From Desulfobulbus sp. (GTDB taxonomy: Bacteria; Desulfobacterota; Desulfobulbia; Desulfobulbales; Desulfobulbaceae): a stretch of 37,705 bases of DNA. Positions within the stretch are counted from its first letter, which is position 1. The number at the start of each line of letters is the position of its first letter. The stretch covers positions 1 through 37,705 of the forward strand of contig DRKI01000156.1 of NCBI GenBank assembly GCA_011051875.1, in the 5' to 3' direction. A model generated the notes under the pieces. That model was given only the letters and a program-made list of their open reading frames with translations, ran no database searches and was not told the DNA's origin. Made by a program: the position numbers and the translations under genes. Below, in pieces: positions 9,850 to 32,543 of the stretch.

Positions 9850-10173
9850 TTATTTTTTCTTCCAGACACCATTGATTTTGATGAACTGACCCGGGGGCGT
9901 TTTTTCGATCGCCTTTTTTCCGGCAAGGATCTCCACGGCCTGCAGCGATGTCTTGTTGCGCCTGGCAATTTTTTCGTACTGCTGTTTGCGCTTGGCGTTG
10001 ATGGTCCGGATGAGCTTTGCCACTTCCGGCGAAGGCGCCTTGACCGGCGCCAGATACCCGGTGGCGGTTTCGCCCACCAGGCCCCTGGTCTTGGCCGTCT
10101 TCAGGTCAATGGCAAAGGCGGGCTGACAGACCAGGGACAGGACCAGGAAGAGCAGAACGATGTATTTTTTCAT
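9850..10173 (-). CDS. ydbL: YdbL-family periplasmic protein (DUF1318)
   Basis: A 107-residue protein with a Sec signal peptide (MKKYIVLLFLVLSLVCQPAF, cleaved after AFA). The mature part carries the DUF1318 pattern: LKTAKTRGLVGETATGYL, then VAKLIRTINAKRKQQYEKIA and a terminal GQFIKINGVWKKK. Start ATG 10173 has a good Shine-Dalgarno (GGAGGA). In E. coli, YdbL is encoded with YdbH and YnbE and is described as a periplasmic modulator of the YdbH-YnbE intermembrane bridge; the same trio is found here in the same order. Assignment to the family is firm; the role is taken from E. coli. Confidence 0.88.
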   Translation of the reverse strand: MKKYIVLLFLVLSLVCQPAFAIDLKTAKTRGLVGETATGYLAPVKAPSPEVAKLIRTINAKRKQQYEKIARRNKTSLQAVEILAGKKAIEKTPPGQFIKINGVWKKK

Positions 10174-10249
10174 TGGAGTCCTCCGTTGTCGTTATCGGTT
10201 GCGCCGGGCGGCGGCAAGATCTTGTCCTGAGGTCGGGCCCGGCAATGGA

Positions 10250-10441
10250 TCAGAACAGGCCGGAATCCTCGCTGAGCACATTGTCGAGTTCCTTTTCCAC
10301 CTTGACCCGTATCTCGTGCTGAATCTTGACATTGAGGTTGATGGTGATCGGTTTTTCCGGTGCCTCCATGCGGACCGTGGGTGAACAGGCGGTGGAGATG
10401 AACAGCGCAAGAAAGAGGAGAGGAGTGAAGAGCCGGTACAT
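10250..10441 (-). CDS. ynbE: YnbE-family outer-membrane lipoprotein
   Basis: A 63-residue lipoprotein. The hydrophobic leader MYRLFTPLLFLALF ends in the lipobox ISTAC, so Cys19 would be lipidated and the protein anchored in the outer membrane. The remaining PITINLNVKIQHEIRVKVEK is a beta-strand-forming segment typical of YnbE, which in E. coli stacks onto YdbH to bridge the periplasm for phospholipid traffic. A strong Shine-Dalgarno (CAGGAGGAACA) fixes the start at 10441; longer in-frame extensions upstream lack this. It is 76 bp upstream of ydbL, and 316 bp separate it from ydbH. Confidence 0.88.
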   Translation of the reverse strand: MYRLFTPLLFLALFISTACSPTVRMEAPEKPITINLNVKIQHEIRVKVEKELDNVLSEDSGLF

Positions 10442-10757
10442 TGTTCCTCCTGCAGATGGGGGTGCGTGACCCGCCTCGGGTAGTATTGACCTGGATTGAC
10501 TCTGCGCATCGTGAATTCCGACCCGGACGGAGGCAGAGATGCCGCAGGTGTGTGCAGGTGCCGCTGCCTGGGGATGCATTGTAGTGAGATCGGATGGATT
10601 TGTCCAGCCCATCTCTCAGGTGGTGGTCATTTGCAGGATGTCGGACCTGTGAGGACCGTGTCCATGTCCGGGTGGAAACTGCCCCGGAGCACCGGCTGCC
10701 GCGCCCTGTGGCCCGGTAACCGGGCGGTGGTTGCCGGAACCGGCGGGGAAAGGGTGG
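10442..10757. other. 316-bp gap between ydbH and ynbE, no gene seen
   Basis: I see no convincing coding frame here. It contains the ynbE ribosome site at its left edge and a short palindrome, GCCCGGTAACCGGGC, whose arms are too close for a classical terminator and lack a T-tract. A separate promoter for ynbE-ydbL or an mRNA processing site are possible. The gap is unusually wide for this trio. Confidence 0.4.
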
Positions 10758-13259
10758 CTACGGAACCGGCGCGGTCGGGGCGGGGCTGTAGTGCTGCTGG
10801 ACGGACCGGTCCAGTTCTTCTGTCAGGGTGCGGCTGTATCGCAGGCTTTTCAGCAGGGAGAGCAGGTTCTGTTCCGTATGGATATTGAGATGGACCGGGC
10901 GCGTGGTCTCCAGTTTCGGGCTGTGGCCTTCCATGTGCAGGCTGACATTGAGCTGTCCGTCCGCCCGGTAGTCCACCCGGGCGGTGAGCAGGTTGTAGCG
11001 GAAGTCTTCCATGGCCTTGAGGGCATAGGCGGTGAGTTCCATCCCGGCCAGGCCGCCCTTATGTTCCGGCCGGTAACGGATGGCGCCTCCGGGCGGCCGG
11101 TTGTGCAGTTCTCCGTCCCTGACACTGATCCCCTCCCTGTCCAGGCGTACCGGCAGCCTGCCATCCACGGTGCCGCTGACCTGGAGATCCTTGACTTGCA
11201 TGATCCGGACCACCTCGGCCAGGTCAATGCCGCTGATGGTAATGGTGAAGCGCCCCCCGGGCCTGGCCGGATCGAGGGTCAGGCCGGATGTCGTGACCCG
11301 GCCGCCCAGCAGCCGGGCCGCAATGCGGTCGATGCGAAGCGCCGGCCGGGCACCGGCTGGTGGTTCCACCAGGGCGATCTTGGCCTTGATGTCATGCACC
11401 ATGATCCCGGCATCCAGGCTTTTCAGGGAGATGGTTGCCGGAACGAGGGACGAGAGGCGGGGCAGAATCTGGAGCTTTTCCCGTACCTGCAGGCCGGAGA
11501 AGGCCAATTCCCCGATCTTGCCCCGACCGTCGGCCAGGGAGATATCAAGCCGCAGTGACGGGGATGAGCCGGCGGACCAGGATGCTTCTGCGCCCAGTTC
11601 CAGGGTTCCCTGGTCAAGATCAAGGGGAACTCCCGGCAACAGGTCCGCCAGCGGATGGTTCCGGCTGAAACGCACCGGCTGCGGGGTGTGCAGCTCCAAC
11701 CTGCCGGCGGACGCAGCCGGTTCATGGACCAGGATCGCTTCCAGCCTGCCGGGCAGATCATCCAGGGCGAACCCGGCTTTTCCCCGCAGCCTGGCCTGGT
11801 CCGCCTCGATGTGGAGACGGAGGTGCGAGATGGGCATGCGTCGGCCGCGTCCGGCAAGGACCAGTCCGGGGGAACTGAGATCGCCCCGGGCAATCCAGTT
11901 GTCCCGGCCTCCCTCCAGCCTCTTGAGTGCAATGGTGAGCGGCCGCACGCGCAGGGAAAAGCCGCCGGCCGCAGCGGTGAACGGCTCCAGCCGCCAGTCA
12001 CCGGGGCGGACAGACCAGCGGCCTGGCCGGAATATGATCTCTGTCCGCTGCCCTGGAGCCAGTTCAAGGCCGGTCAGGCGGGTTGCGTTGCCGGTGAGGC
12101 CGGTTGCCTGCAGCCGGAAGGCCTGGGTCAGGACCAGGGTTGCCAGGTCCGGCTGCAGGGCGAGGGAAAGCGCCGGCTTGATCTGCAATTGTTCACAGCG
12201 CCAGCCGGGCGCGGACACTCCTGTCAGGATCCATCCCCGGCCAGCCGCTGGTTTGAGGAGAAGGCCCGGCGCCTGCCGGCCATAGGTTCCGGCAAGCGCC
12301 AGGTCGGCCGTGGCAATGGCGAACCCGGCCCCCTTGAGCCCGGTCAGGGAGAGACGGGAGCCGTTGTCGAGGATGATTTCCCCGGTGCTGGTCCGGAGTG
12401 TGCCTTTGAGTCGGAGAGATGCCTGTTCCGTCTGCAGGGAGGCGGTGCCTGCCGCGTTGGCGAGCATGTTCAGGGAAAACAAGGGATCGGTGCCAGCGGC
12501 AAGAAGGAGGCGGCCGCTGAGTGTGCCCCTGAGTCCGGAAGTGGTCCGGGTCTGCAAGGGGGCGAGCCGGGAGAGAGCAGCGAGACGGATGGTGAATTCG
12601 CCGCCCAGGCCGTTTCCGTCAGGATGGAGGGCGAGACGGGAGATCCCGGAGCCCTGGCCGTCTTCCAGCAGGAGTTCGAGCCTGTTGTGCCGGGAGAGGT
12701 CCAACCTCAGGCGGAGGGTTTCTCCCGCTGCAGTCATGGCCAGGGTTCCATGTACTGTCCTGTCCGTTGCCACCAGGGCCAGGGAGAGATCCTTGCCGGC
12801 CACGATACCGGCCCCTCTTCCCGAGAGGCGCAGCCGGCCGATGGTCAGCCTGTGCAGGGGGATCCTGTCCTGCCAGCCGGTGCTGTCAGGGATGGCCGGC
12901 AATGGGGGCAGGCGGAAAGGGGACGATGAGGGCGGGCCCGATTTTTCCGGCAGCCGGAGGGCGAGGGAATCGATGCTGATGGTGTCGAGCCGCCGGTTCC
13001 GGAGGATTGCAGCGCCATAGGTGGCGGTCAGGTTGTGCAGGCTGATATTCAGCCGGTCCCCGGCCAGGGGCAGGGAAAAGGCGATGGTCTCAAAACGGAT
13101 GCTGTGCGGGGATACCCGGGCTACCCGTACCGTGACATGGCCGGCCCCCTGCATCTCCAGAAGCTGGCGCACCCCCAGGGCGAGCAGACGGCAGCGGGAG
13201 ACCACCAGCAGGAGCAGCAGGGACAGGAAAGCCAGGGTCAGGATCTTGAGGGTCCGCAT
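10758..13259 (-). CDS. ydbH: YdbH-family AsmA-like intermembrane lipid-transport protein
   Basis: An 833-residue protein with an N-terminal inner-membrane anchor (MRTLKILTLAFLSLLLLLVV) and a long periplasmic part built of repeating beta-rich stretches. This is the AsmA-like layout shared by YhdP, TamB and YdbH, which form grooved rods carrying phospholipids to the outer membrane. The C-terminal third (about 600-800) carries the YdbH (formerly dicarboxylate transport) domain, including SGTVDGRLPVRLDREGISVR and NLLTARVDYRADGQLNVSLH. The presence of ynbE and ydbL next to it supports YdbH over other AsmA-like proteins. ATG 13259 is preferred because it directly precedes the membrane anchor; an ATG 10 bp upstream is out of frame. 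It lies 95 bp after the M50-HlyD gene on the same strand, so readthrough from the export locus is possible. Confidence 0.88.
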   Translation of the reverse strand: MRTLKILTLAFLSLLLLLVVSRCRLLALGVRQLLEMQGAGHVTVRVARVSPHSIRFETIAFSLPLAGDRLNISLHNLTATYGAAILRNRRLDTISIDSLALRLPEKSGPPSSSPFRLPPLPAIPDSTGWQDRIPLHRLTIGRLRLSGRGAGIVAGKDLSLALVATDRTVHGTLAMTAAGETLRLRLDLSRHNRLELLLEDGQGSGISRLALHPDGNGLGGEFTIRLAALSRLAPLQTRTTSGLRGTLSGRLLLAAGTDPLFSLNMLANAAGTASLQTEQASLRLKGTLRTSTGEIILDNGSRLSLTGLKGAGFAIATADLALAGTYGRQAPGLLLKPAAGRGWILTGVSAPGWRCEQLQIKPALSLALQPDLATLVLTQAFRLQATGLTGNATRLTGLELAPGQRTEIIFRPGRWSVRPGDWRLEPFTAAAGGFSLRVRPLTIALKRLEGGRDNWIARGDLSSPGLVLAGRGRRMPISHLRLHIEADQARLRGKAGFALDDLPGRLEAILVHEPAASAGRLELHTPQPVRFSRNHPLADLLPGVPLDLDQGTLELGAEASWSAGSSPSLRLDISLADGRGKIGELAFSGLQVREKLQILPRLSSLVPATISLKSLDAGIMVHDIKAKIALVEPPAGARPALRIDRIAARLLGGRVTTSGLTLDPARPGGRFTITISGIDLAEVVRIMQVKDLQVSGTVDGRLPVRLDREGISVRDGELHNRPPGGAIRYRPEHKGGLAGMELTAYALKAMEDFRYNLLTARVDYRADGQLNVSLHMEGHSPKLETTRPVHLNIHTEQNLLSLLKSLRYSRTLTEELDRSVQQHYSPAPTAPVP

Positions 13260-13354: not shown

Positions 13355-15517
13355 TCACGGAATATCCCGGCTGTCGGCCCGTTGCTGTTTTCGCTTCAGC
13401 CAGGATCGCCACCAGTCGCCGAGCACCTGTCCCGGGGTGATCCGTTCTCCCGGGGCATGGATCCAGGCCCGTTGGCCTTCCCGCAGCCGGCCGACCACTG
13501 TTGCCGGCAGGGCAAGGTCGATCCGGAAGACCGGGCGGAACAACTCGATATGATAGCGCTGCTCGAAGGTTTTTCCGGTCCCGGCAACCGCCTGTTGACG
13601 GACATCCAGCGGGCCGCCGTACAGGGCGGCCAGGGCGGGATGGGGCAGTTCCATGGTCGCGGCCGGGGCCACCCGTTCCAGCAGCGCCATGAAGGTCCCT
13701 GCACCGGCCGCCCGCATGTCCACGGTCAGCGGCCGGCCGACCAGGCCGCGCAGGCTGTCGATATCGTCCTGGGCAGCGGCACCGACCAGGTGTTTCTGCC
13801 CGGGACTGATGATCCACAGGATCTCCATGCCCCGGCGCAGAAAGGTTCCCTTCAGGCTGTCCAGGTCAGGGGCAACGACCAGGCCGTCGGCCGGGGCCGT
13901 GATGCGCAGGGCATCCATGTCGTTTTCCAGGAGCTGTGCTTCTTTTTCCAGGGCATGTCGCTGCTGCCGGAGGATCCTGAAATCGGTGAGCCGGTCCCGG
14001 CTGTGGGCCAGCCGGATACGGATATCCAGCTGCCGCAGTCGCCGGCGGACATCACCGAGGGAAGCGGAGATCTCCGGATTGTCCAGGAGAAGGAGAAGCT
14101 CGCCCTGCCGGACCTGGGCGCCGTCACCGGTCTCGATGCTCCGGACGAATCCCGGGGCCGGGGCCCGCACCCGGACCTGGTGCTCGTATTCCACCACCGC
14201 GGGCACCAGGATCTGTCTGCGCCAGCCGGCGAACTGCCAGATGACCGTGATCACAAGCAGGGTCAGGAGCAGGCGCAGGGAAAGATGGCGCAGCAGGTGC
14301 GGGTTCCTGGTTCGGTACAGGGGCAGCCGCTGCAGGAAACCATACACCGGCATGCCGATCCAGACAAGGACCGCGCCCATGGTGACGAAGATTCCCAGCC
14401 CGCCGGCCATCATGCTGGCCAGGTAACCGAGCGACAGGACCACCAGGATCCGCCAGATGAAGACCGCCACGCCGTAGATCCTGATGAAGGTCCGCCGGCC
14501 GCCCCGGTAGCGGAGAGGGAGTGGCTGGATGCCGAGAAACCAGCGGGCGGCAAGTCCCTTCACCTCCTGAAAGGCGAGACCGTACAGGTTCGGGATGCCC
14601 ACCAGGTCGGAGAGCACGTAGTAGCCGTCAAAACGCATGAGCGGGTTGGCATTGAAGAGCAGGGAACTGATACCGGCCACCAGTACCGTGTTGTGGGCGA
14701 TGAACCCTGCCTTGCTGGCCGGATCCGTGACCCAGACCAGGATGGCGACCCAGGCCACCATGGTCTCGGCCAGGATGCCGGCCAGGGCCACGTGGATCCG
14801 CTGCCAGCGCGAGGGAAAGCTCCAGGAGGATGTGGCCTCCACGTAGGTGAGCGGAATGAAGAGGATGAACAGGATCCCGGCCTCGGGCACGCGGCCGCCG
14901 TAGAGACGCGTCACCAGGGCGTGCAGGAATTCGTGCAGGAGCTTGAGACCCGACCAGATCAGCCAGGTGATGAGCAGGTTGCGGCTGGAGAAGAAGCCGG
15001 CCGCCTGGTGGCTGAACTCCTGCCAGTGGCCGGCCAGTGTGGCCAGGCCGGCCACTGCCAGCAGCAGCCAGAGGCTGAGGAATGGCAGGCCGCTTGCGGC
15101 CACCATCCAGGCCGGCAGCCGGTCAAGGAAGGGGTCGGGGTTGAAGAGCGGCAGCTTGAAGGAAACCAGGTTGAGGCGGCTGAATTGTTTGAGCCGGCGC
15201 TGCCGCTCCTCCAGGACCAGGTGATCGGTCGGCGCCTGCTCGTGCCGCAGGAGCTGCTGCCGGTCGAGCCACCTGATGACGGCCTGGGCCTGTTCCGGGG
15301 TCAATGGTTCGTTGCCGGCGGCATTGACCACGGCCAGCAGTTCGTCCATGGTGCGTGCCCGGTCCAGGGTGATGGCCAGCAGGTACTCTTCACGGCCGAT
15401 ACGGAAAAAGAGGTGCCGGACCGGATCCTCGATGATGTAGCAGTCTTCGCCACCGTCGTTCACAGGGCTGAATCTCAGCTCGGGGCGGAGGCCGGGCAGA
15501 GCGTGACGGGTCGTCAT
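13355..15517 (-). CDS. M50 (site-2-protease-like) membrane protein fused to a HlyD-type adaptor
   Basis: A 720-residue polytopic protein with three parts. Residues 1-100 look like a PqqD-type winged-helix domain (CYIIEDPVRHLFFRIG, then EEYLLAITLDRARTMDELL). Residues about 135-430 are multi-spanning and hold the M50 zinc motif HEFLH (195-199) and the distal NPLMRFDGYY (291-300, Asp297 as third ligand). From about 440 a lipoyl-like HlyD half-domain (VRAPAPGFVRSIETGDGAQV), a coiled coil (about 485-560), the second lipoyl half and a beta domain follow. No ATP-binding motif is present. It starts 6 bp after the GAF-HlyD stop, so the two are almost certainly cotranslated and probably one complex. 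The role I infer is the inner-membrane core, possibly maturation peptidase, of an exporter for the giant adhesin; the catalytic residues appear intact. Confidence 0.85.
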   Translation of the reverse strand: MTTRHALPGLRPELRFSPVNDGGEDCYIIEDPVRHLFFRIGREEYLLAITLDRARTMDELLAVVNAAGNEPLTPEQAQAVIRWLDRQQLLRHEQAPTDHLVLEERQRRLKQFSRLNLVSFKLPLFNPDPFLDRLPAWMVAASGLPFLSLWLLLAVAGLATLAGHWQEFSHQAAGFFSSRNLLITWLIWSGLKLLHEFLHALVTRLYGGRVPEAGILFILFIPLTYVEATSSWSFPSRWQRIHVALAGILAETMVAWVAILVWVTDPASKAGFIAHNTVLVAGISSLLFNANPLMRFDGYYVLSDLVGIPNLYGLAFQEVKGLAARWFLGIQPLPLRYRGGRRTFIRIYGVAVFIWRILVVLSLGYLASMMAGGLGIFVTMGAVLVWIGMPVYGFLQRLPLYRTRNPHLLRHLSLRLLLTLLVITVIWQFAGWRRQILVPAVVEYEHQVRVRAPAPGFVRSIETGDGAQVRQGELLLLLDNPEISASLGDVRRRLRQLDIRIRLAHSRDRLTDFRILRQQRHALEKEAQLLENDMDALRITAPADGLVVAPDLDSLKGTFLRRGMEILWIISPGQKHLVGAAAQDDIDSLRGLVGRPLTVDMRAAGAGTFMALLERVAPAATMELPHPALAALYGGPLDVRQQAVAGTGKTFEQRYHIELFRPVFRIDLALPATVVGRLREGQRAWIHAPGERITPGQVLGDWWRSWLKRKQQRADSRDIP

Positions 15518-15523
15518 GGTCGT

Positions 15524-17335
15524 CTACAGGAATCGGTCCAGGATATGGAGCAGGGTGTACCAGGGGCGATGCAGGAGGATCCACCCCAGGCTGCGCCGGC
15601 CGCAGTCGATGCTTGCCTCGCCGCGCATGCCGGGCCGGAGGCGGCCGTCACCATTGGCGGTCTCGAGTTCGGCGATGAAGACGTTGCGCATGTCACGGAT
15701 GCGTGACTTGGGAATGATCCGCTGGATGGTTCCCTGCCACTGCCGGCCCGGGAAGGCGTCGAAGCGGATGACCACCTGCGTCCCGGGCCGGACCCGGGCG
15801 ATGTCGTCTTCGCCGATGGCCAGTTCGATGTTCATCGTTTTCAGGGGCGCCACCTCGAACAGGGTCTGCCCCTTGTTCACCGGTCCGCCCTCGGCCCGTT
15901 TCAGGTCCCCGGTGAGCACGATGCCATCCACCGGGCTGACCAGTCGCAGGTGCTGCTGCCGCTGTCGGAGCAGGTCGATCTGCTGGTCCAGCCGTTCCAT
16001 GTCCAGGCGGGCCACCTGCGCCGCAGGCGTATCGCCGGCGGCCAGGTAACGGTCATACATCCTGGCCGCCTTGTCCCGCTCCGCGGTCAGGCCGGCAAGC
16101 TGCAGGCTGATTTCGCGGCCATCGAGCCGGGCAAGGAGTTCGCCGGCATGAACCCTGTCGCCGGGATCGACCAGCACCTTGTCCAGGATCGTGTCGAACC
16201 GCGCCACCACGTATCGGGTGGTAACCGGCCTGACCAGGGCCGAGGCCGGCACGCGGAAGGGGACCGGAATGAGCAGGACCAGGACCAGGATGGGGACCGC
16301 GCCGGCCATCAGCAGCCGGCGCCGCCGCCGCTGCCGTTCCCCTGTCTCGCCGCCCGCCAGCCGCCACGACCGCGGCTGCAGGACCTGCACACAGCCGGCC
16401 AGCAGGGGTGCGGCCTTTCCGAGCATGGCCAGGGTGGCGGTGACGTCCGCAGGCTTTTCCTGCCAGAGCAGAAGCAGGCCGCCGCTGGAACCGGAATCAC
16501 CCGGCAGGGGTACAGCGGCCACGCAACCGCTGCCCGTGGCACGACCTACCTCGGCCAGGACAGGAGATTGCTGTTCCGGGTCAGGGGCGGGCCAGCAGAG
16601 GCTGGCGGAGCGGCCGGCGCATTCGGCAATCCCCTTTTCCAGGAGCCGCGTCTCCTCGGTACGGCGGTCCGGGGAGCTGATATCGGAGAGCGTCAGCAAG
16701 GCCATGCGGCTGCCGCGGCTGCCGGCAATGGCCACGCGGCTGCAGCCGGTCAGTCGGCGCAGGCCGGCAGTGAGCCGCAGCAGACCGTCCCGGCCGCCGG
16801 CCTGCAGCACCTCGGCCAGCAGCCCGGTCATGCCGGAGTCGTCTCCATCCGTGGCGTCGCAGGATGCGAGCTGCAGTTCCAGGATGGCGGCCAGGAGCTG
16901 GCCAACGACCAGCAGCGGCTCAACGTTTTCCGCCGCTGTCCGGCAGACGAGCGTCAGGCAGGCAGGGAGCCCGCCTGCCAGGGGACAGGCCATGAGAAAG
17001 ACCGGGGGGTGGTCGGCAAGGGACCGGTACAGGGCCTTCTCCCCGGCCCGGGCCTGCCGGGCCAGGCGGGCGAGCTGCTGCTCCATGTCAGGGGCCCAGG
17101 CCAGGGCCTGGCGCGAGAGCAGGGTGGCGATGGCGGCCGGATCCCCATCGTTCTCTGCAAATATCACGGCCCCGGCCGCATTGAGCAGGCCGATGGCGTG
17201 ACGGAGGAAGCCGTGCAGCAGTTCCTCACGGTCCCGGCGGCCGATACCGGCAAACAGGCCGGTCAGGCGGTAGAGATCCGGTTGTTCGATCCTGGCACCC
17301 GCCTGACCGGGACTGGCTGATTGCTGACTGTTCAA
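15524..17335 (-). CDS. Two-GAF-domain, membrane-anchored HlyD adaptor
   Basis: A 603-residue protein. About 335 cytosolic residues contain two divergent GAF-like regions (about 35-150 and 170-315). A basic stretch RQRRRRRLLMAG leads into one membrane helix (341-358). The periplasmic part is HlyD-like: a lipoyl half (VVARFDTILDKVLVDPGDRV), a short coiled coil (about 410-450), the second lipoyl half (LRLVSPVDGIVLTGDL), and a beta barrel with the usual IRFDAFPG. The only start in the open frame is TTG 17335 without a visible Shine-Dalgarno. The frame stays open upstream for 27 codons to the stop of the preceding small gene, so the true start is uncertain. GAF domains bind small ligands or regulate partners; their fusion to an export adaptor suggests ligand-gated assembly or energisation (inference). 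Confidence 0.85.
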   Translation of the reverse strand: MNSQQSASPGQAGARIEQPDLYRLTGLFAGIGRRDREELLHGFLRHAIGLLNAAGAVIFAENDGDPAAIATLLSRQALAWAPDMEQQLARLARQARAGEKALYRSLADHPPVFLMACPLAGGLPACLTLVCRTAAENVEPLLVVGQLLAAILELQLASCDATDGDDSGMTGLLAEVLQAGGRDGLLRLTAGLRRLTGCSRVAIAGSRGSRMALLTLSDISSPDRRTEETRLLEKGIAECAGRSASLCWPAPDPEQQSPVLAEVGRATGSGCVAAVPLPGDSGSSGGLLLLWQEKPADVTATLAMLGKAAPLLAGCVQVLQPRSWRLAGGETGERQRRRRRLLMAGAVPILVLVLLIPVPFRVPASALVRPVTTRYVVARFDTILDKVLVDPGDRVHAGELLARLDGREISLQLAGLTAERDKAARMYDRYLAAGDTPAAQVARLDMERLDQQIDLLRQRQQHLRLVSPVDGIVLTGDLKRAEGGPVNKGQTLFEVAPLKTMNIELAIGEDDIARVRPGTQVVIRFDAFPGRQWQGTIQRIIPKSRIRDMRNVFIAELETANGDGRLRPGMRGEASIDCGRRSLGWILLHRPWYTLLHILDRFL

Positions 17336-17416: not shown

Positions 17417-17719
17417 TTACTGCTGCATGTTTTCTGCCGGCCGGCCTTCGGCCGGGCCTGTCTCTCCCCCGGCCCGCTGCTGGGTGAGGACGCGGGTGAG
17501 GACATCGTGCAGCCGGCGGGCTGCGGACATGGTCATACCGATACGACAGTCCACGGTCAGGATACTCTCGCCGGTCGCCGGGTCGGTCAGGGGGCCGGGT
17601 GAGCAGTTGAGGATCAGTTCGTCACCGTTGATGTTGACAATGAACTGGGAGGCAAAGGTGGCCGAGGTCTCATTGTACCGGACCTTGATCTGCTGCTGTC
17701 TGCTCTGTTGTTCGGTCAT
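17417..17719 (-). CDS. 100-aa small protein in the export locus, DUF3467-like
   Basis: A 100-residue soluble protein without a signal peptide. The core RYNETSATFASQFIVNINGD, then ELILNC, a short loop, LTVDCRIGMTMSAARRLHDVL and a Q/E-rich tail resembles the layout of DUF3467 proteins (strand, strand, then a Pro/Ser-Ala-Ala-helix segment), but the match is by eye. Its ATG at 17719 lies 50 bp inside the end of the upstream HlyD gene, a strong sign of translational coupling. It would be cytosolic and could be a chaperone, an adaptor to the GAF-HlyD, or a regulatory subunit; none of these is proven. Its stop is in the same frame as the downstream GAF-HlyD gene. Confidence 0.6.
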   Translation of the reverse strand: MTEQQSRQQQIKVRYNETSATFASQFIVNINGDELILNCSPGPLTDPATGESILTVDCRIGMTMSAARRLHDVLTRVLTQQRAGGETGPAEGRPAENMQQ

Positions 17720-18572
17720 GGTCTTCTGCTCCGACAGGGATGGAGAGGGTGAGGTGACAGCGGCTGCCGCTGGTCAGGGCAAGGTCGGGATTGGGGACCC
17801 GGACACGCACGGTCACCGTGCCGCTCCTGGCGTCGATGACAGGAGAGACGAAGTCGATGGTTCCCTCTGCCCTGGCATCACCGATGCGGACCTGGACCTC
17901 CTGGCCTGGCCGCAGTCCCTGCGCCGCCGTCAGCGGCAGGTGGAACCGGCCGAGCAGGGGATCGAGCTGGACCAGGGTCAGAAGCGGCTCGGCGTCACCG
18001 CCGCCGATAAGTTCAAATTGTTGTTTATACACCTTTTCCACGACACCGTCAAGGGGGCTGCGCAGTTTCTTCTCCTCGATTTTCGCCTCGATGACCAGGA
18101 CATCGAGTTTCTTCAGGCGCTGTTCCTCGATTGCGCTCTGGAGCCGGGCCCTGGCCATGGCCAGCTCGGTGCGGGCACCGGCCAGTTCCCTGGGCCTGGC
18201 GTTCCCGCTTTTTTCCAGTTCCTGCAGCAGGTCCAGCCGGTTCTTCCGCATGGTGACCAGGGCGCGGGCCGCATCGATCGCGCCGTGGGACCCGGCTGCC
18301 TGGCGGGCCGCGGCCAGGTCGGCCTGCAGGACCCGGCTGTCCAGCTCGGCCAGGAGCTGGCCGGTTTGCACCCGGTCCCCGTCCCGCACGTGTAACCTCT
18401 CGATCCTGTCCCGGAACGGGGTGGAGATATCAACCACCTGGTTCGGTTCGAGGAAGCCCTCGAATTCCGGACCGGCGGCGCCGGCGGCGTGGGGCAGGGC
18501 CAGGGCCAGCCACAGCAGGCCGAGCAGGATCTCTGCCGCATGGCAGGGTATGGGATTACTGCGCGCGGACAT
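17670..18572 (-). CDS. Periplasmic HlyD/RND-type membrane-fusion adaptor
   Basis: A 300-residue periplasmic adaptor. A signal-like segment (ILLGLLWLALALPHAAGAA) is followed by a lipoyl half-domain (PFRDRIERLHVRDGDRVQTG), a helical hairpin (about 80-165), the second lipoyl half (KLRSPLDGVVEKVYKQQFEL) and a beta-barrel domain (LDPLLGRFHLPLTAAQGL, then GTIDFVSPVIDARSGTVTV). This is the compact layout of adaptors that dock TolC-like channels onto inner-membrane pumps. The ATG at 18572 overlaps the TolC-like gene by 17 bp and no Shine-Dalgarno is visible, consistent with coupling. It is the third HlyD-type protein of the cluster and the only one with a cleavable signal, so it may be the part that meets the channel. 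Confidence 0.88.
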   Translation of the reverse strand: MSARSNPIPCHAAEILLGLLWLALALPHAAGAAGPEFEGFLEPNQVVDISTPFRDRIERLHVRDGDRVQTGQLLAELDSRVLQADLAAARQAAGSHGAIDAARALVTMRKNRLDLLQELEKSGNARPRELAGARTELAMARARLQSAIEEQRLKKLDVLVIEAKIEEKKLRSPLDGVVEKVYKQQFELIGGGDAEPLLTLVQLDPLLGRFHLPLTAAQGLRPGQEVQVRIGDARAEGTIDFVSPVIDARSGTVTVRVRVPNPDLALTSGSRCHLTLSIPVGAEDHDRTTEQTAADQGPVQ

Positions 18573-20373
18573 TGATGACCGGCAGGCCGTGGTCCGGTTC
18601 CTCCTCGGTGAACTCGATCCGGTTGGTTTCCACCAGGATGCCCATGGCCCGGTACAGGTTGTAGAGGGAGTAGTTGTAGGTCAGTTCGCTCTTGGCAAAG
18701 AGCTCCTCCGAGTCGGTGAGACGCTCGCTGGCATCCATGAGCTGGTAGAGGACCTCGCCATAGGGCCGGTTGTTGGCCAGGAGATAGTCAACCCGGGCAA
18801 GGAGGGCCTGGACTTCTTCGTCGTCGGCCTTCATAATCTGGTAACTCTGGACCATGGAACGGTAGTTCTTGACCAGCTCCCGGTAGGAGACGCGGGTCTC
18901 CAGGAGCACGTTTTCCACCGTGGTGTCGAGCTGGTGGAGGAGCTGGCGGATTTCGAGCCGCTTGCGCAGGTTGCGGGCCTCGGCGCCGTTATTGCCCAGG
19001 GGGTATTCGAACCTGAGCCCGGCCACGTAGCTGGGACCGCCTTCGTCGAACTGGTTGTCGTAGGCCGAACCGTATCGGTAGTCGCCGTCAAGGCCCTTGA
19101 CATAGGTCTGGAAAAAGAGGTCCAGGTCAGGAAAGAGCTCGTTCTCCGAACGTTCGAGCCGGAGATAGGCGGACTGGATCTGGCGGATGGCCTGCGCCAC
19201 CTCGGGCCGCTTGTCCAGGCTGGTCTGGAGGGCGTGGTCAAAGGAGACATCGACCATGTGGTCCGCGGGCAGCTGGCGGGTGATCATCTCCAGGCCCGAG
19301 GCGTTGAGCAGGTCCGGCGCATTGACCAGGGCCCGGATCCGGGCCTGGGCGTTGAGCATGGCATATTCGGCCTGCAGGGCGGCCAACTCGTGGGAGCTGA
19401 CCAGGGAGCGCGCCCGGGCGAGCAGGCTGGGCTCCACGTCCACCTTGGCGCGTTCCTGCATCCGTTCAAGGAATTTTCTCGTTTTCTCCGCAAGGCGGGT
19501 CTTCTGCACCAGCAGGGAGCGTTCCAGGTAGAGCCCCCAGTAGGCCCGGCTGATCTCGAGTAGGTGACTTTCCACGTCGCGCCGCAGCTCCTCGCCGGCA
19601 ATGTCATGGTCGATGCGGGCAAGGTCGATGGGGGCCCGGTTGTAGCGGATGCCGAACCGCTTGAGCAGCGGCTGCCGGATGGTCAGGTAGGTCCCGGCCC
19701 GGGCCTGGTCCTCGGGATTGAAATAGGTGGAGTTGGTGTCCATGTCACCGATGTTCTGCTTCAGCTCCACCTCGGTGCCGGTAAGGAACTTCTTGCGGAT
19801 GCCGTACTCGAGGTTTTTCGAGGTCTCCTCGTAGCGCAGCGGGCCGCCGGTCTTGAGATCGTCACCTACGGGTTCGTCGAGATCGGTCAGCCTTCCTTCG
19901 GCAAAGAGGCGAAAGTCATAGGGGCCTTCCGCCTCCCGGATCGAGGTCTTGCGGATCAGCGGCAGGTCGCTGAAGACCTTGATCTGGGACGAGCTGGACA
20001 ACGCCTTGACAAAAAGCGACGAGATGTCGGTCTCCACCTCGGGCACTGCCTCGTTGATCCGGCCATTGACCTTTTTCTGCCACCAGGGAGTGTATCCTTC
20101 GGGGATGGTACCGGTTCTGATGGCCAGGCCGGTCTCCTTCCGGCCGGAAAAGACGCTGACATAGTTTTTTTCCGCCTCTTCCATGCGGGTGACGATATCC
20201 TGGTACCGCTGGAAGAGCTTTTCCTTGAGCTTGTCGTAGTCGCTCTTGCTCTCCTCAACGGCCCGGGTGACCCGGGTGAAGTCGGAATTCTCCTCTTCGT
20301 GTTCCGCCCGGGCGTCTGCCAGGCAGCAGACCAGGATGAGCAGGGCGAGGGCAAGGGTGGTGCACTGTTTCAT
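18556..20373 (-). CDS. TolC-family outer-membrane channel
   Basis: A 605-residue protein with a Sec signal (MKQCTTLALALLILVCCLA, cleaved near ARA). After a charged, coiled N-terminal extension (about 30-75) and a further region to about 190, two TolC repeats follow with the expected long helices (for example HLLEISRAYWGLYLERSLLV and LETRVSYRELVKNYRSMVQS) and barrel strands such as AGTYLTIRQPLLKRFG and YVAGLRFEYPLG. At 605 residues it is longer than E. coli TolC (about 490), mostly from the N-terminal extension. It sits 88 bp after the giant adhesin gene and overlaps the HlyD adaptor gene, so it is most likely the outer-membrane exit for the adhesin. ATG 20373 is preceded by AGAGGT. Confidence 0.92.
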   Translation of the reverse strand: MKQCTTLALALLILVCCLADARAEHEEENSDFTRVTRAVEESKSDYDKLKEKLFQRYQDIVTRMEEAEKNYVSVFSGRKETGLAIRTGTIPEGYTPWWQKKVNGRINEAVPEVETDISSLFVKALSSSSQIKVFSDLPLIRKTSIREAEGPYDFRLFAEGRLTDLDEPVGDDLKTGGPLRYEETSKNLEYGIRKKFLTGTEVELKQNIGDMDTNSTYFNPEDQARAGTYLTIRQPLLKRFGIRYNRAPIDLARIDHDIAGEELRRDVESHLLEISRAYWGLYLERSLLVQKTRLAEKTRKFLERMQERAKVDVEPSLLARARSLVSSHELAALQAEYAMLNAQARIRALVNAPDLLNASGLEMITRQLPADHMVDVSFDHALQTSLDKRPEVAQAIRQIQSAYLRLERSENELFPDLDLFFQTYVKGLDGDYRYGSAYDNQFDEGGPSYVAGLRFEYPLGNNGAEARNLRKRLEIRQLLHQLDTTVENVLLETRVSYRELVKNYRSMVQSYQIMKADDEEVQALLARVDYLLANNRPYGEVLYQLMDASERLTDSEELFAKSELTYNYSLYNLYRAMGILVETNRIEFTEEEPDHGLPVINVRAQ

Positions 20374-20461: not shown

Positions 20462-23400
20462 CTAATGACTGAGATTGGAAGGATTGATGGACGGAGACAG
20501 GAACTCGTAGTCCCGGTAGCCGTTCCAGCGCAGGGTGAACGAGGACAGGTTGCTCTGGTGGACCGATTCCATGACCGTGGTCGGCATCTCGGCGAACACG
20601 GCATCCGCGGTCAGCGGCACGGTGGAGAAGACCATGGAGCTGAAATCGGGATTGAAGTAGGTCCGCAGGTTGAACATGCCGGCCGAACTGTCGTTGTAGC
20701 TGGATATGGTCTGCTCGATCTCCAGGTGATGCGGGACATCGTAGAGCAGGGAGCCCGGGAAGCCGGCCAGCCAGTTGCCGGCCGTGTCCGCCATCACGGT
20801 CTGGTAGCCGATGGCATCACCATGGACATCAAAGAGGGTCATGAACAGGGTGGTGCCTGGCTCGGCGTGGCCGCTGTACACGGGCGAGATGGGCACCAGG
20901 GGCTGCGGCCACGGGATCCCGGCAAATGGTGTGAACAGGGTCTCCTCTGTCTGTTCCGCAAACTGGCGGTACATGAGCAGGCTGTCCGCCTCGGGCAGGA
21001 CCGGCTCGGCCGCCGGTACCGCGGGAGAGGGCGTCACGGGCCGGGGTTCCGGCTGGACCGGGGTGACAGGAGGCGAGGGCGGAAAGGTGTAGCCGAAATC
21101 CGTGCTCCGGTTCTGTTCCCCGGCGCCCAGGTCGACCACGGTGGTGTTGTCGCCGCCGCCGTCAGGGTCAAAGCCGGGTTGGATCCCCGGGGGCAGGGTG
21201 GCGGGGTTGACACAGACCGTGTGGCTGCCGGCCGGCAGGTTGTCGAACAGGTAGGCGCCGCTTGCGTCGGTGGTCGTGATGGCCCGGTAATCCGGCTGGC
21301 CGTCACCGTCGAGGTCAACGCCGATGCAGACCTGCACCCCGGCCAGGCCGGCCTCGCCCGGATCCTGGACACCGTTGCCGTTGGAGTCAACCCACAGCTG
21401 GTCGCCGATGGAGCCGGTGCCGGTGTAGCCGAAGTCCCGGGAAAGGTCGTCCTGGCCCGGCGCCAGGGTCAGGGTGGTGGTGTTGTCAATGACGCCGTCC
21501 GGATCGCCGCTGCCGGTCATGCCCCCGGGAAGGGTGGCCGGATCGACGGTGATGTCGAATTCGCCGGCCGGCAGGTTGGGGAACAGGTATGTGCCGTCCG
21601 GGCCGGTGGTGACGGTCATGGTGTCATCGGTCTGGCCGTCGTTGTCAAGATCACCGGTAAGAGTGACGGTGACTCCGGGAATTCCCACTTCATCCGGATC
21701 CTGGACACCGTCATTGTCGGCGTCGTACCAGATGGTATCACCGATGGAGCCGGTGCCGGTGTAACCGAAATCCACATCCAGGTTGGCCTCGTTGTTGCCG
21801 ATGGTTACCTGGGCGGTGTCGGGTGACCCGGTCCCATCGGCATCAAAGGTCTCCTCCATGCCGCCGGGCAGGGTGGATGGGTCAACGGTGATGGCATAAC
21901 TTCCGGCAGGCAGCCGGTCAAAGAGGTAATTGCCGTCCCCGTCGGTTACCGTGGTCAGGGTATCATCGGCCACACCGTCGCCGTCAAGATCGCCGACCAG
22001 GGTGACCTGGACGTTGGCCAGCCCTGGTTCGCCGGGATCCTGGACCCCGTCGCCGTCGGCATCATACCAGATGGTATCGCCGATGGCGCCGGTCTGCTGG
22101 TAGCCGAAATCCTGGTCGTTGTTGGTTTCACCGGCTGCCAGGGTGACATTGGCGGTATTGTCGTTCCCGCCATCCGGATCAGCGGTGGGCTGCATGCCGG
22201 GCGGCAGGGTGGCCGGGTCAACAGTGATGGTGTACTGCCCTTCCGGCAGATGATAAAAATGGTATTGGCCATTGCTGTCAGTGGTGGTGGTCACCGTGTC
22301 CGGGATGCCGTCTCCGTTGAAATCCCCGCTCAGGGTGACGGTGACTCCGGCCAGCCCGGTTTCGCCGCTATTCTGCGTGGTGTCTCCATCGGCATCGTTC
22401 CAGATGGTGTCACCGATGGAACCGGTGCCGGTATAGCCGAAATCCTGGTCCAGGTTGACCAGGGGACTGGAACCGCCGATGGTAACCTGTGAGGAATTGT
22501 CATTTCCACCATCCGGATCTGCGGTCTGGGTCATGCCGTTCGGCAGGCCGGTCAGGGTGATGGTATAGTCACCGGCGTTCAGGTTATCAAAGAGATACTT
22601 GCCGTCACTGGAGGTTGTCGCCGTTGCAACGGTATTGCCGTTTCCGTCGGTCAGGGTGACGGTGACCCCGTTCAGTCCCAACTCGCCGGGATCCTGGACC
22701 CCGTCGCCGTCGGCGTCATACCAGATGGTATCGCCGATGGCGCCGGTCTGCTGGTAGCCGAAATCCTGGTCGTTGTTGGTTTCACCGGCTGCCAGGGTAA
22801 CGTCTGCTGTGTTGTCATTTCCTCCATCCGGATCAAAAGTCTGGTTCATTCCCGGCGGCAGGGTGGCCGGGTCAACGGTTATGGTGTAGTTGTCGGCCGG
22901 CAGGTTGTCGAAATGATAGTTGCCGTTGGCATCCGTGGTTGTGGTCACGGTGTCCATCACCCCGTCATTGTTCAGGTCAGCGGTCAGGGTGACGGTGACT
23001 CCGGCCAGCCCGGTTTCGCCGCTATTCTGCGTGGTGTCTCCATCGGCATCGTTCCAGATGGTGTCACCGATGGAGCCGGTGCCGGTATAGCCGAAATCCT
23101 GGTCCAGGTTGGTTGCACCACCGGCAAGGCCCAGGGTGGTGGTATTATCGTTGACTCCGTCCGGATCAGCGGTCTGGGCCATACCCGGCGGCAGATTGCT
23201 TACCGTAATGGTATAGTCACCGGCCTGCAGCTGGTCAAAGAGATAGTGGCCGTCGGCATCAGTGGTCGCTACAACCGTGTCCGGGTTGCCGTCACCATCC
23301 ACATCACCGGTCAGGGTGACGGTGACTCCGCTCAGCCCCAATTCTCCCGGATCCTGGATACCGTCGTTATCGGCATCATACCAGATGGTATCGCCGATGG

Positions 23401-26400
23401 TGGCCTGGGAGTTGTAACCGAAATCCACATCATTGTTGATCGGGTCGGCCGCATCCAGAGTGACTGCCGCCGTATTGGGAGTCGCCGGTGTCGTGGAATG
23501 CGGGTCATCAAGATCATGGGTCTGGCTGTTGCCGGGCGGCAGGGTGGCGGGATCAACGGTCACCGTATAATCGCCAAGGAAGAGGTTGGCAAAGGCGTAG
23601 TGGCCGCTTGCGTCCGTGGTCGTGGTCAGGGTGTCATCGGCCTGGCCGTCATGGTCAAGATCACCGGTCAGGGTAACCGTCACTCCGGCAAAGCCGTTTT
23701 CTCCCGGATCCTGGATGCCGTTGCCGTTGATGTCGTTCCAGACCGTATCGCCGATGGCGCCTGTTCCGGTGTAACCGAAATCGACCCGGTCGGTGTGTTC
23801 ACCGGTTACAAGGGTATAGAGGGTTGTGGAGTCCGGTGAGGTAGTAGCGCTGTCCAGGTCATAGGTGGGCGTGGCACCGTCAGGCAGTGTGCCGGTATCA
23901 ACGGAAATGGTGTAGTCCGTCCCGACAAGATGGTCAAATTGATATAGACCATTTGCATCGGTTTGGGTTGATGTTGAAAATTCATTGAAACCGTCACCAT
24001 CCACATCAGCGGAAATGGTGACCGTGACCCCGGCCAGCCCGGGTTCGGTCCCCTCCTGGACACCGTTGCCGTTTATGTCATACCAGACCGTGTCGCCCAG
24101 GGAACCGTTGCCGGTGTAGCCGAAGTCCACGGTATCATCATTGCTGCCTGCGGCAAGAGAATGAACAACAGTATTTGCGCTGCCGGTTCCATCTTCATCA
24201 TAGGTCTGGGTCCAGTTGGAAGAGCCACCAGGCAGGGTGGCAGCATCAACAGTTATGGTATAGCTGCCGCCAAGGAGATGGGCAAAGCTGTAACTGCCGT
24301 CATCGGCCGTGGTGGTGGTCGCGGTGAAGTCGACGGTACCGTCGCCGTCGATATCACCGGTCAGGGTGATTTCGACGCCACCGATACCGGCATCGGTACC
24401 GTCATTGGCCTGGTTGGTATCGGCGTTGCCGTCGTACCAGACATAATCACCAATGGAGCCGGTGCCCCGGATCCCGAAGTCGATATCATCACGATCCTGG
24501 TCAGCACCCAGGGTCAAGGGTGTTGTGTTGTCCGGCGAACTTGTGCCGCCATCGTGGTCATAGGTCGGGGTGGAACCCGCGGGCGGCGTTACGGAAACAG
24601 CATAGTCACCGGCCGGCAGGTGGTCAAATCTGTAATGACCATCTGCATCCGTCGTTGTCGAGGTGGTATACTCATAGTTTCCGTCACCGTCAATGTCGGC
24701 GGACAGGGTAACGGTCAGGCCGCCTATGCCGTCTTCAGCAGGAGTTCCCGTCGTGCCGTCATCCTGGTTGCCATCGCCGTCCACATCAAACCAGACCGTG
24801 TCGCCGACGGAATTTTGGCCGGTATAACCGAAGTCTATGTCCGTGCGGTCCTGGCCGGCCGCCAGGGATGCGGTGGTGGTATTGGCGCTTGCCGTGCCGT
24901 CCTGGTCAAATGTCTGTGTATATCCCTCGCCTGCCAGGTTTGTGGGGTTGGTGCCGCCGCTGGTGGCGGTATCCACGGTGATCACATAACTGTCAAAAGC
25001 AGCCAGGTTGCCGAACGTGTACCGGCCATTGGCATCGGTGCGCACGGTCTGCGTGTATTCAGAAACGCCGTCATTGTCGATGTCCGCGGTCAGTGTCACG
25101 TCAACCCCGCTGATCCCCACGTCACCGGCAGTTTCGGAACCGGAGTTATCCGCGTCAAAAAATACAGTATCGCCAATGGAGCCGGTGCCGCGATAGCCGA
25201 AATCCACATCCGCCCTGGTCTGACCCGCGGCAAGTGCAACCGCGGCCACATCGGCGGTCCCGATGCCGTCAAGGTCATGGGTGGCAACCATGCCGCCGGG
25301 CAGATCGGAATGATCCACGGAAACGGTATAATTGCCGGCAAGGAGATGATCAAAGTGATAACTGCCGTCATCGGCGGTCGTTGTTGTCCTGGTTTCGTTC
25401 ACCCCGTCGTTGTCGAAATCACCGGTCAGGGTTACATCGATACCGCCCAGGCCGGAAGCGGGTCCTTCATTCTGCGTTCCGTCTCCGTCAGCGTCGTACC
25501 AGATGAAGTCGCCGATGGAACCGGTACCCCGGTAGCCGAAATCCACATCGGTCTCGTTGGCACCGATACCCAGGGTGGTGGTGTCGCTGTTGGGGCTTGT
25601 GAACGGTGCAAGGTTGTCATCCTTGTCATATGTCTGCTCGAATCCGCCGGGCAGGGTGTTCGTATCAATCGTGGTTGTATAATCAGCCGCAGGCAGATGA
25701 TCGAAGGTATAGTTGCCGTTGGCATCGGTCTGGGCGGTCCCGGTCCACTCGTTGACACCGTCACCATCCACGTCGGCCGTGATATGAACCGTCACATTGG
25801 CAAGCCCGAGCTCATCAGTATCCTGAACACCATCCGCATCAAGATCAAGCCAGACCCTGTCGCCCAGGGAACCGGTGCCGGTGTAGCCGAAGTCCACCGT
25901 GTTGTCCGTACCGCCGGCAGCAAGGTTCAGGCTGGCTGTATCAGGTGTTCCTGTTCCGTCCAGGTCATGGGTCTGGGTCCAGTTGGAAGAGCCGGAAGGC
26001 AGGGTGGCCGTATCCACGCTGACCGTGTAGGCCGCACCCAGCAGATTGGCAAAGGTATAGCTGCCATCATTGGCCGTGACTGTTGAGGTTGTGTAATCCG
26101 CGGTGCCGTCATGATCAAAGTCGGCAGACAACTGCACGGTCACATTGGCAAGACCGGAATCTGCACCGTCATCCTGGTTGCCATCGGCATCTGCGTCAAA
26201 CCAGACAAAATCACCGAGGGAGCCGGTGCCGCGATACCCGAAGTCGATATCGTCGCGGTCATTGTCGGCTGTCAGCGTGAAGTTGCCGGTGTTGGCGGAT
26301 GCGCCCGTGGTTGAACCATCGATGTCATAGGTCTGTACACTGCCGGACGGCGGGGCGACAACCACCCGGTAATCGCCAGCGGGCAGGGAATCGCCAAAGC

Positions 26401-29400
26401 TGTACCAGCCGTCAGTGGTCACACCGCCAACGGTATGGGAGGCCGTGGATGTGGAGGTGGAATATTCATAGTCTCCGTCACCGTCGATATCGGCATACAG
26501 GGTGACGCGGAGACCGTTGAGGCCGCCCTCATTGGCATCCTGGGTTCCGTCACCGTCACCATCCCACCAGACCACGTCACCCACCGAGTTCTGGCCGGTA
26601 TAGCCGAAATCCACGTCGGTACGGTCCTGGCCGGCTGCCAGGCTGATTTCCCGCGCCGTGTGGTCCAGGACCGGGCTGCCGTCTTCGTCCAGGTCATAGG
26701 TCTGGTGGTAGCCGGAATCCTGGAGATTGAAGGGGCTGCCGCCGCTGGCATCGTAGTCGACGCTGATGGTGTAGGCGTCAAAGGCGGCCAGGTTGTCGAA
26801 CAGGTAGTTTCCGGAGCTGTCGGTGGTCACGGTGCGGGTGTACTCGGGCGTACCATCGTTGTCCACGTCGGCGCTGATGGTGACATTGACTCCGGAGATG
26901 CCCACGTCGTCGGCGGAGAAGCCGCCCGAATCGTTTGCATCGAAGAAGACCATGTCACCGATGGAGCCATCGGTCACCACGGTGAAGGATGCCGAGTCCT
27001 GGTCCTGGCTGCCGTCCACGGGTGAGTTGCCGGTATCGGCATAGGTCCGCTCGCCGGCCTGGCTGCCATCCATGCTGGACCAGTCGCCATCCACGGTGTT
27101 GCTGTAGGTGCCGGCGGTGAATCCGGCGCCCATGACGGTCACCGTGTACTGGACCTGGACCCAGTCGCCCACCGCGATATCCCAGTCACCGCCAATGGTG
27201 AGGGTGCCGGCTCCGTTATCGGTGACCGTGACCGGCACGGCCGCGCCGTCCTGGTCGGCCGCGGACGCCGAACCGGCATTGAATGCCACCCCGCCGGGCA
27301 GGGTGTCCCGGGCGTTGACCTCGTAGGCCGTGGACTGCCCGGTGTTGGTGAACCGTACCGTATAGGTCATGACCTCACCCGGCGAGGCGTCGGTGCCCGC
27401 GTCGGCCGAGTCGGTCACGGTCTTGAGGGTGGTGATCTGGGGTTCCACCACCGTGACGGTGGGATCGGTGGGATCGTCGGTGGTTATCCTCTGGCCGGGA
27501 TTGTTCGGGTCGTCAAAGGTCATGGAGGCATGGTTGGTGAGCGTGACCCCCTGGTAGTTGCTTCCCTGGTCCAGGACCTGCACCGTCACCTGGATGGTGA
27601 AACCGTTGTTGGTGGAATCGTTGTCCGCCGTGACCTGGACATTGCCGAAATCAAAGGTGATGTCGTTGCCGTCCCCGGCTGTGCTGACCACGGTCGGCGC
27701 GTTGAGGGTTCCGCTGAAGGAGGAGGTGTCCACCTGGTGCGAGACATAGACCATGCCGTCGGGCAGGGCGTCGGTGACCACCAGGCCATTGGTGTCGCCC
27801 TCGGGCAGGTCGACCTGGATGGCATAGGTGACCTCCTCACCAATGGTATAGGCGGTGGGTGACGGATCCTGCTTGTCGATGGTGGCGATCACCGTGACCT
27901 GGGCCGTGGAGGCGTCGCGGTAGTCGTTGGCCGCGCCGCCCGGATCCGCCGTGTCACCGGTCCGTTCCGTGGAGAGACTGTTGTGCGTGGACTGGGGCGC
28001 GGTCACGTCACCCGGCAGGCCGGTCCAGCCGATGTCTGCCGTATTGGAAAGGTCCTGGCCGGCCTGGGCCGTATCCAGGTGGGCCTGGAAGGTGAGGGTC
28101 GAGGTCTGGCCCTGGACAAATGTGGACCAGGAGGCGGAGATGACATTGCCGCTGATGGCGAGCGAGTCAGGCGCCAAGCCGCCGGTGTGCTGCAGCGAGC
28201 CCGTGACATAGGTCAGGCCGGTCGGGATGGTATCGGCCAGGCTGGCCTCGAAGGCGTCCGCGTCACTGGAGCCCGCATGTTCGATCACCATGGTGAAGGT
28301 AATGGTATCATCCTGGTCCGGGTGCGGCGCATCCACGGTCTTGGTCACCTGCAGCGTCGGTTCGACCACGGTCAGGTCCGGGCCGGAATCGGCATGGGAG
28401 TGGAAGACGCCGTTGCCATCCTGCCAGATCAGCCTGGCCTGGTCGTTGACCGTCTCGCCCCGGTCCAGGTCCGGGTTGTTGAGGACCACCCCGGTGAAGG
28501 TGACCGTGACGGTCTCGGTAGCCGAGTTGTCGGTGTCACTGTTGACCAGGTCGCCGAAGTCCAGGGTGAATCCGCCACCGTCGGCGTCGATGGTGGCATT
28601 GTTGAGGATATCGTCAAAGGTACCGTTTGCCGCCGAGAGCCCGGCCGAGGCGCTGATGGAATCCAGGCTGAGCACGGCCATCTCGACACCGGCAACGTTA
28701 TCGGTCATGGCGTCGGTCAGGCGCGCATTGTAGAGTGTGCCCTCGGGCACTGTGAACGTGACAGTATACTGCGCCTGTTCGCCGATGGCCACGTCGGTGC
28801 CGCCGGTATGGGCCTGGTTGGTTGAGACAAGAACCTTGTCGGTCCGGGCGGCGGCCGTGGTCACCCGGGCGTTGTCGGTGGGATCGGTGACCGTGTGGTC
28901 TGTGCCGCCCTCGGTGCCGGCATAGTTGGTGATACGTGCCGTGTTGTCCAGGTTCTGGAACGAGGAGACGCCGGTGGTGGCGGCCAGGTCGTAGGTGATG
29001 ACCAGGATGTCCGCGCCCGAGGCCGGATCGGTGGGGGCCAGGGCGCCGTCGGCGTCATCGGTTATTTCGAGGCCGGTGAACAGGTCGCCGCTGTAGGCCA
29101 GGGCATTGCCGGCACCGTCGGTCACCGACAGGTTGAGGCCGCCCGAGGGGGTGGTGAAACCGGTGGGCATGTCATCGGTGATCCGGATGTCAAAGGCGCC
29201 GGAATGGCCGGTATTCTGCACCACGATGGCAAAGGTGACCAGGTCGCCGGCATCGATACCGATAAGGTTGGTGTCGATGTTGTGGCCCGCCAGCCAGTCA
29301 CTGGAGATCACGGTTCCACCCTCGCTGCGGAAACCGCTGCTGCCCGGATCGGTGAAGTAGGAATCCACGCCTGCGTTGCCGAGGAAGGCGCCGGCGGGAT

Positions 29401-32212: not shown

Positions 32213-32543
32213 ATCCATGCTCCGGTTGTGTTTCCCGATGGTCGGTTTTTGGAAACAGGAATAGGAGGCGTTTTGGACAGAGAATTATTTTTATTGGTCA
32301 ATATTTTACATATTTTTCCCGAAACTGCAACAGCTCTGTCGGCCACATCGTGGGTGCACAATGCGGATGGCTGAAAACTCGTTGTCCCCCAATGGATTTG
32401 GGCGAACAGGGGTGGCCGGTCCCTGTAAATCATTGCGTCGGCACGGTCTCTTTTCCCAGTTGCAGATGGGTGAAACGCTCATTCCAGGTGGAAGGCGGGT
32501 GGAGCCATTCTTTCTTCTGCCAGTCGCTGAAAGGGCATGGGTC

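Follow-up and report, generated by a model that had tools for sequence, protein, structure and literature searches.

An M50-HlyD fusion protein with a predicted RiPP recognition element fold is associated with giant proteins carrying a common N-terminal LExR leader

The stretch of DNA analysed here in its entirety (37,705 nt from Desulfobulbus sp., contig DRKI01000156.1; hereafter the window) carries an operon on its minus strand. In order, its genes encode a giant protein of 3918 aa, a TolC-like channel, an HlyD protein, an HlyD protein with an N-terminal extension, a fusion of an M50 peptidase to an HlyD adaptor (M50-HlyD), YdbH, YnbE and a DUF1318 (YdbL-type) protein, with M50-HlyD being the final secretion gene of the operon. 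The giant (20462..32218, minus strand, as are all features below) displays SdrD_B, DUF11 and prealbumin-like repeats in profile scans and is the presumed cargo; RTX repeats were searched for in this protein and none were found. Nor did we find an ordinary signal sequence in the giant, the hydrophobicity of which is below that strength, whereas the TolC-like outer-membrane channel (OEP; 605 aa, 18556..20373, OEP profile 1.6e-22) has an ordinary hydrophobic signal-like stretch at its N-terminus. The third HlyD/RND-type adaptor (300 aa, 17670..18572) was assigned using Pfam and scored above the TIGR01730 cut-off. The second HlyD protein (603 aa, 15524..17335, HlyD_D23 4.8e-22) has an N-terminal half corresponding to the GAF part of its relatives; no GAF domain match was returned for the window copy, while PF01590 was detected in one relative (L087, 3.7e-6). 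The operon in the window contains no ABC ATPase and no RND or MFS pump. Scanning it for promoters and terminators gave no informative signal.

Downstream of M50-HlyD lies a gene for a YdbH-like protein of 833 aa (10758..13259, PF11739 3.5e-71), which is perhaps outside the exporter proper. The YdbH, YnbE-like lipoprotein and DUF1318 (YdbL-type) genes that follow the cassette (window 9850-13259) form a lipid-transport set, and YdbH follows or neighbours the cassette also in loci L045, L047, L048, L050 and L063.

The M50-HlyD ORF (13355..15517) starts with ATG and encodes 720 aa, assigned by ORF, Pfam, AlphaFold2 and Foldseek analyses to a PqqD/RRE domain, an M50 intramembrane metalloprotease and an HlyD adaptor. 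Peptidase_M50 (PF02163) was detected above its cut-off (E=3.7e-7), and the translation contains the zinc-site motif HEFLH (residues 195-199, 14921..14935) and the distal NPLMRFDGYY (residues 291-300, 14618..14647), in which D297 is the third zinc ligand. Across 111 M50-HlyD relatives, H195 is retained in 110, E196 in 111, H199 in 109 and D297 in 111, indicating that the zinc site is not a product of chance. Both HExxH and the distal DG fall in predicted membrane helices, the arrangement that defines an M50/site-2 protease. The whole-chain AlphaFold2 model (mean pLDDT 82.8; pTM 0.55, for which reason the placement of the domains is uncertain) consists of a small N-domain, the helices of residues 144-428 and then a barrel-hairpin-barrel adaptor. 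According to the AlphaFold2 helices, hydrophobicity and the positive-inside count, residues 144-428 (14234..15088) represent a membrane core of seven helices. The even loops contain 18, 3, 8 and 3 K+R residues versus 1, 0 and 0 in the odd loops, an asymmetry that positions the zinc site, like the N-domain, on the cytoplasmic side and the HlyD part in the periplasm.

Foldseek searches with the full chain were dominated by HlyD matches; hence, the N-terminal domain (residues 8-92, 15242..15496) was modelled separately. The resulting model (residues 1-91, pLDDT 87.9) displays three strands and three helices, as does the PqqD/RRE winged-helix fold, and its best PDB matches were complexes of an RRE with its leader (5v1u, 5v1v and 6jx3; prob 1.00, TM 0.62-0.68, E 0.004-0.06, the modest E values being due to the small size of the domain), comprising leader-bound TbiB1 and a lasso-peptide B1 protein with leader. 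PF05402 (PqqD) did not match the window copy in Pfam; it was detected in 6/18 M50-HlyD relatives (best E 1.8e-7), and one plasmid relative carries the annotation 'PqqD family peptide modification chaperone'. The predicted structure of the N-domain is that of a RiPP recognition element (RRE). At the other end of the chain, the periplasmic HlyD/MFP part (residues 431-693, 13439..14227) returned HlyD_3 (PF13437) above its cut-off (9.3e-6) and HlyD_D23 just under its cut-off (4.9e-7). Its AlphaFold2 fold of beta, helical hairpin (481-536) and beta reproduces the lipoyl half, hairpin, lipoyl half and beta barrel of HlyD/membrane fusion proteins, and Foldseek matched it to MacA, MexA and AcrA (E down to 3.6e-13). 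The initial annotation of this gene, made from the letters, had proposed a complete M50 zinc site, an HlyD unit in the same chain and a PqqD-like N-domain; all three agree with these results, the full-chain prediction containing the zinc-site helices as well as the N-domain that proved PqqD-like when modelled separately.

The NCBIfam model closest over residues 28-385 was the daptide intramembrane metalloprotease NF041824 (152.9 bits, E 1.3e-44); as the equivalog cut-off of 300 bits was not reached, M50-HlyD is homologous to this family and not a member of it. In common with the daptide protease and the YydH/LiaK epipeptide protease (NF058609), to which it is related by profile homology, it combines an N-domain with an M50 core; unlike both, it remains below the equivalog cut-offs, carries an extra HlyD adaptor and adjoins giants instead of small peptides. 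A scan of viral contigs using the M50-HlyD protein returned no match. Some related sequences depart from the zinc motif. In the M50-HlyD of locus L107 (Fuerstiella), which adjoins split HlyD ORFs, the second zinc histidine is replaced (HEVAP), and this locus may be a cassette in decay or may reflect an error of assembly. The window's own genome encodes a second M50-HlyD-like paralog (L033, G000:C149:1722-3137) with relatives at L040, L041 and L042; paralogs of this type lack HExxH (GEVVK or SETAK instead) and retain the distal DG motif. The L041 paralog is flanked by genes for a TPR-PilZ protein and an OEP, and the L033 type may be an inactive, c-di-GMP-linked exporter variant.

The giant begins with MDMSKPAKRNLLLEQLEDRIFLDANP, in which the motif LEDRIFLDA (giant residues 16-24, 32147..32173) was located by a six-frame search with NF012209 and by alignment with relatives. 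This LEPR-8K model (NF012209, 17-bit cut-off) scored 20.4 bits in the six-frame search and 14.0 bits in the protein scan. The giant is reminiscent of the LEPR-XLL proteins described by the model in being very long and repetitive and in bearing an N-terminal LExR motif, and differs from them in that the window letters are LEDR. Neighbouring giants have the consensus leader [LF]-E-x-L-E-x-R-[ILV]-L-[FL]-[DS]-[AG]. The motif occurs within the first 90 residues of 19/80 ORFs of 1000 aa or more near M50-HlyD, and among ORFs near M50-HlyD it is 21.6 times enriched there relative to the remaining residues. In the aligned leaders, the motif is extended by [DS]-[AG]-x and an obvious single cut consensus was not seen; a hydrophobic core of signal-peptide strength was not found in the LExR leader. 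That giants neighbouring M50-HlyD have a common LExR leader is new, and we found no literature linking the LEPR/LExR motif to an M50-HlyD exporter.

Leader and M50-HlyD are associated by co-occurrence, adjacency and co-variation. Among 296 genomes of the window's phylum, a LEPR hit was obtained in 8/15 with M50-HlyD vs 2/281 others (p=2e-10); these counts cover the window's own phylum only, and because the search scored the best three candidates per genome, those for M50-HlyD may be low. Among 96 nearer relatives, the corresponding figures were 13/24 and 5/72 (p=2.7e-6), and the hits in the five genomes lacking M50-HlyD were all to ORFs not exceeding 550 aa. No LEPR hit was obtained in about half of the M50-HlyD genomes, for which broken assemblies and divergent leaders may be responsible. 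Leader-bearing giants adjoin M50-HlyD in at least 16/80 loci of the genome scan, in which many contigs are cut. Leader similarity also tracks M50-HlyD similarity over 31 pairs (Mantel rho 0.46, p=0.0002), within Pseudomonadota (rho 0.58, p=0.002) and within the window's phylum (rho 0.52, p=0.01). When the protein was divided into parts, co-variation with the leader was similar for HlyD (rho 0.41), RRE (0.44) and M50 (0.46), which demonstrates co-inheritance but is not proof of direct contact; the difference between RRE and HlyD was too small to claim that the former co-varies more with the leader.

The tie between the leader and the M50-HlyD exporter is not a strict one, given that two genomes of 95-96% completeness (G167 and G210) contain long LExR ORFs without a detectable M50-HlyD, and that a LEPR giant with an RTX domain at its C-terminus has been reported from Vibrio (PMC10868602). 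As leaders exist without the cassette, the tag may be used by additional routes. The proposal of the initial annotation that the LEPR-like N-terminus of the giant is the leader is strongly supported by a genomic association that extends across many phyla, and is corrected as to the letters. The data suggest that the LExR tag is an address read, and probably cut, by the M50-HlyD exporter.

The 80 loci recovered from the public genome scan were distributed over Planctomycetota, Verrucomicrobiota, Pseudomonadota, Myxococcota, Nitrospirota and others. Further HlyD genes were present in 65 of these, a SecA-like ORF (mostly 632-735 aa) in 32, an N-terminal LExR ORF in 16 and a nearby ABC ATPase in 4. 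A SecA paralog was identified in 46/111 M50-HlyD loci, always on the same strand and directly adjacent in 39; these paralogs possess SecA_DEAD, SecA_PP_bind and P-loop_SecA domains, with scores that do not reach the SecA equivalog cut-offs. On the M50-HlyD tree, SecA-labelled members form clusters, and the window lies within a SecA-less clade. No secondary SecA_DEAD protein is encoded in the window, and only one full-length SecA was found in its 80%-complete genome. Members of the window's family retain the order of the cassette, the nearest named record to the window cassette being a Desulfobulbaceae MAG. Cassettes of the SecA type occur beside giant ORFs of 9,795 aa (G306) and 15,080 aa (G223). 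At locus L175 (G053:C7), a SecA paralog adjoins an HlyD gene in a genome without detectable M50-HlyD.

In E. coli, the M50-HlyD gene is present in 24/5,426 complete genomes, mostly on plasmids and with insertion elements near. The SecA-less five-gene layout was observed on E. coli plasmids and one chromosome and on a Kosakonia cowanii plasmid. The E. coli giant in the records read is a 4459-aa Ig-like protein with an LExR leader (NZ_CP010169.1 2237722-2257473; NZ_CP081687.1 44829-64580), and the leaders of the E. coli and K. cowanii records are FALESRQLFDGAA and SLEPRMLFDGA. In Thalassospira marina, a gene annotated LEPR-XLL is positioned directly upstream of an HlyD and M50-HlyD pair, while Mesorhizobium ciceri encodes a giant with the leader FEALEPRLLLSAD and a SecA-like gene that carries a DEAD/DEAH helicase annotation. 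The leader in Azospirillum lipoferum 4B is FALEPRFMFDAA. The cassette layout thus recurs in named records of Thalassospira, Mesorhizobium and Azospirillum as well as E. coli and Kosakonia. Plasmid pMSR-1 of Magnetospirillum is an exception, the neighbouring gene being without a leader.

The gene content of these loci is reminiscent of the module of SecA_DEAD, M50-HlyD, GAF-HlyD, HlyD and OEP described by Kamneva, Poudel and Ward in 2015 (PMC4452313) in Planctomycetes, Verrucomicrobia, Proteobacteria, Nitrospirae and Chlorobi, who proposed that it acts in a manner resembling type I secretion, M50 serving as the pore; the main text of that paper does not name a substrate, a leader or a PqqD domain. 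The window shares with this module a conserved locus in which M50-HlyD, GAF-HlyD (in the window, a counterpart without a GAF match) and HlyD occur together and an ABC transporter is absent (the module includes OEP in some loci), and departs from it in lacking SecA and in having the TolC gene and the giant cargo inside the operon. HlyD adaptors, a TolC-like channel and a giant adhesin cargo are likewise found where RTX adhesins such as LapA are secreted by the type I route (HlyB-HlyD-TolC). However, the window operon lacks an ABC ATPase, and its giant bears an N-terminal leader and is without RTX repeats; the ABC transporter, HlyD and TolC set of a classical type I secretion system is incomplete, and RTX-type type I secretion was dropped as an explanation. 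We found no literature joining M50, HlyD and PqqD.

On this basis, M50-HlyD is probably the leader-reading, leader-cutting inner-membrane part of an exporter that handles giant repeat proteins, is coupled to TolC and is free of an ABC transporter. We infer that export is the function and that leader binding and cleavage would precede it in the following order. The cytoplasmic RRE would bind the N-terminal LExR leader of the giant; the membrane zinc site beside it, on the cytoplasmic side, would then cut at or near the leader; and the periplasmic HlyD part, together with the two other HlyD proteins, would dock a TolC-like channel through which the chain could exit the cell. In SecA-bearing relatives, the dedicated SecA paralog, usually encoded adjacent, would supply the push, and in SecA-less forms such as that in the window the motor may be the housekeeping SecA. 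The initial annotation had placed leader recognition, cleavage and export in one protein, which overstates its role: since the cassette adds further HlyD proteins, usually a TolC-like channel and often a SecA paralog, M50-HlyD is at most the leader-reading and leader-cutting part. Roughly even, in our estimation, are the chances of the broader claim that these loci represent an unrecognised pathway of protein secretion. In it, an RRE, a domain known to date from peptide natural products, would read LExR on proteins thousands of residues long, an intramembrane metalloprotease would remove the leader, and passage of the chain through HlyD and TolC would be powered by a SecA paralog or by the housekeeping SecA instead of an ABC ATPase.

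Cleavage is the step on which a rather less likely, though serious, alternative differs. Here, LExR would be an uncleaved targeting or retention tag and the machine would still carry the giant, with M50 freeing stalled chains, cutting a regulator or acting as the pore. The continuation of the motif as [DS]-[AG]-x with no obvious single cut consensus is consistent with this idea, as is the proposal of M50 as a pore by Kamneva et al. (PMC4452313). However, the near-invariant HExxH and D297 argue for catalysis, and a role in leader processing is favoured by the fusion of an RRE to M50 and by the match to the homologous daptide protease model.

The route across the inner membrane could also differ, in that the giant might cross by ordinary Sec and the action of the cassette be confined to the periplasm and outer membrane. 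Sec-type translocation is indeed suggested by the dedicated SecA paralog of many relatives, and the window genome shows one SecA only. Nevertheless, the LExR leader has no hydrophobic core of signal-peptide strength and the cytoplasmic RRE would be left without a role, and we consider this explanation, which is in part compatible with leader reading and cutting by M50-HlyD, unlikely. Least probable is that the operon encodes an ordinary efflux pump or an exporter of RiPP-like peptides with the giant gene as a chance neighbour: MFP and OEP parts are known in drug pumps and the M50 part has homologues in the daptide and epipeptide proteases, but the operon has no ABC, RND or MFS pump and giants with the same leader adjoin M50-HlyD in several phyla. 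A plain drug-efflux operon was dropped.

We found no paper that answers how LEPR-tagged giants exit Gram-negative cells or what the SecA/M50/HlyD module of 2015 carries. The evidence joins both questions, with the giants as the likely cargo and the LExR segment as the likely address, and would extend the RiPP leader-recognition fold to protein secretion. Culturable carriers include Methylomonas sp. LW13 (locus L164), Kosakonia cowanii, Thalassospira marina and some E. coli strains. Finally, a DUF3467 gene is positioned directly after the giant in L190 and L188 (Mesorhizobium ciceri, Thalassospira marina), representing a possible additional member of the cassette.
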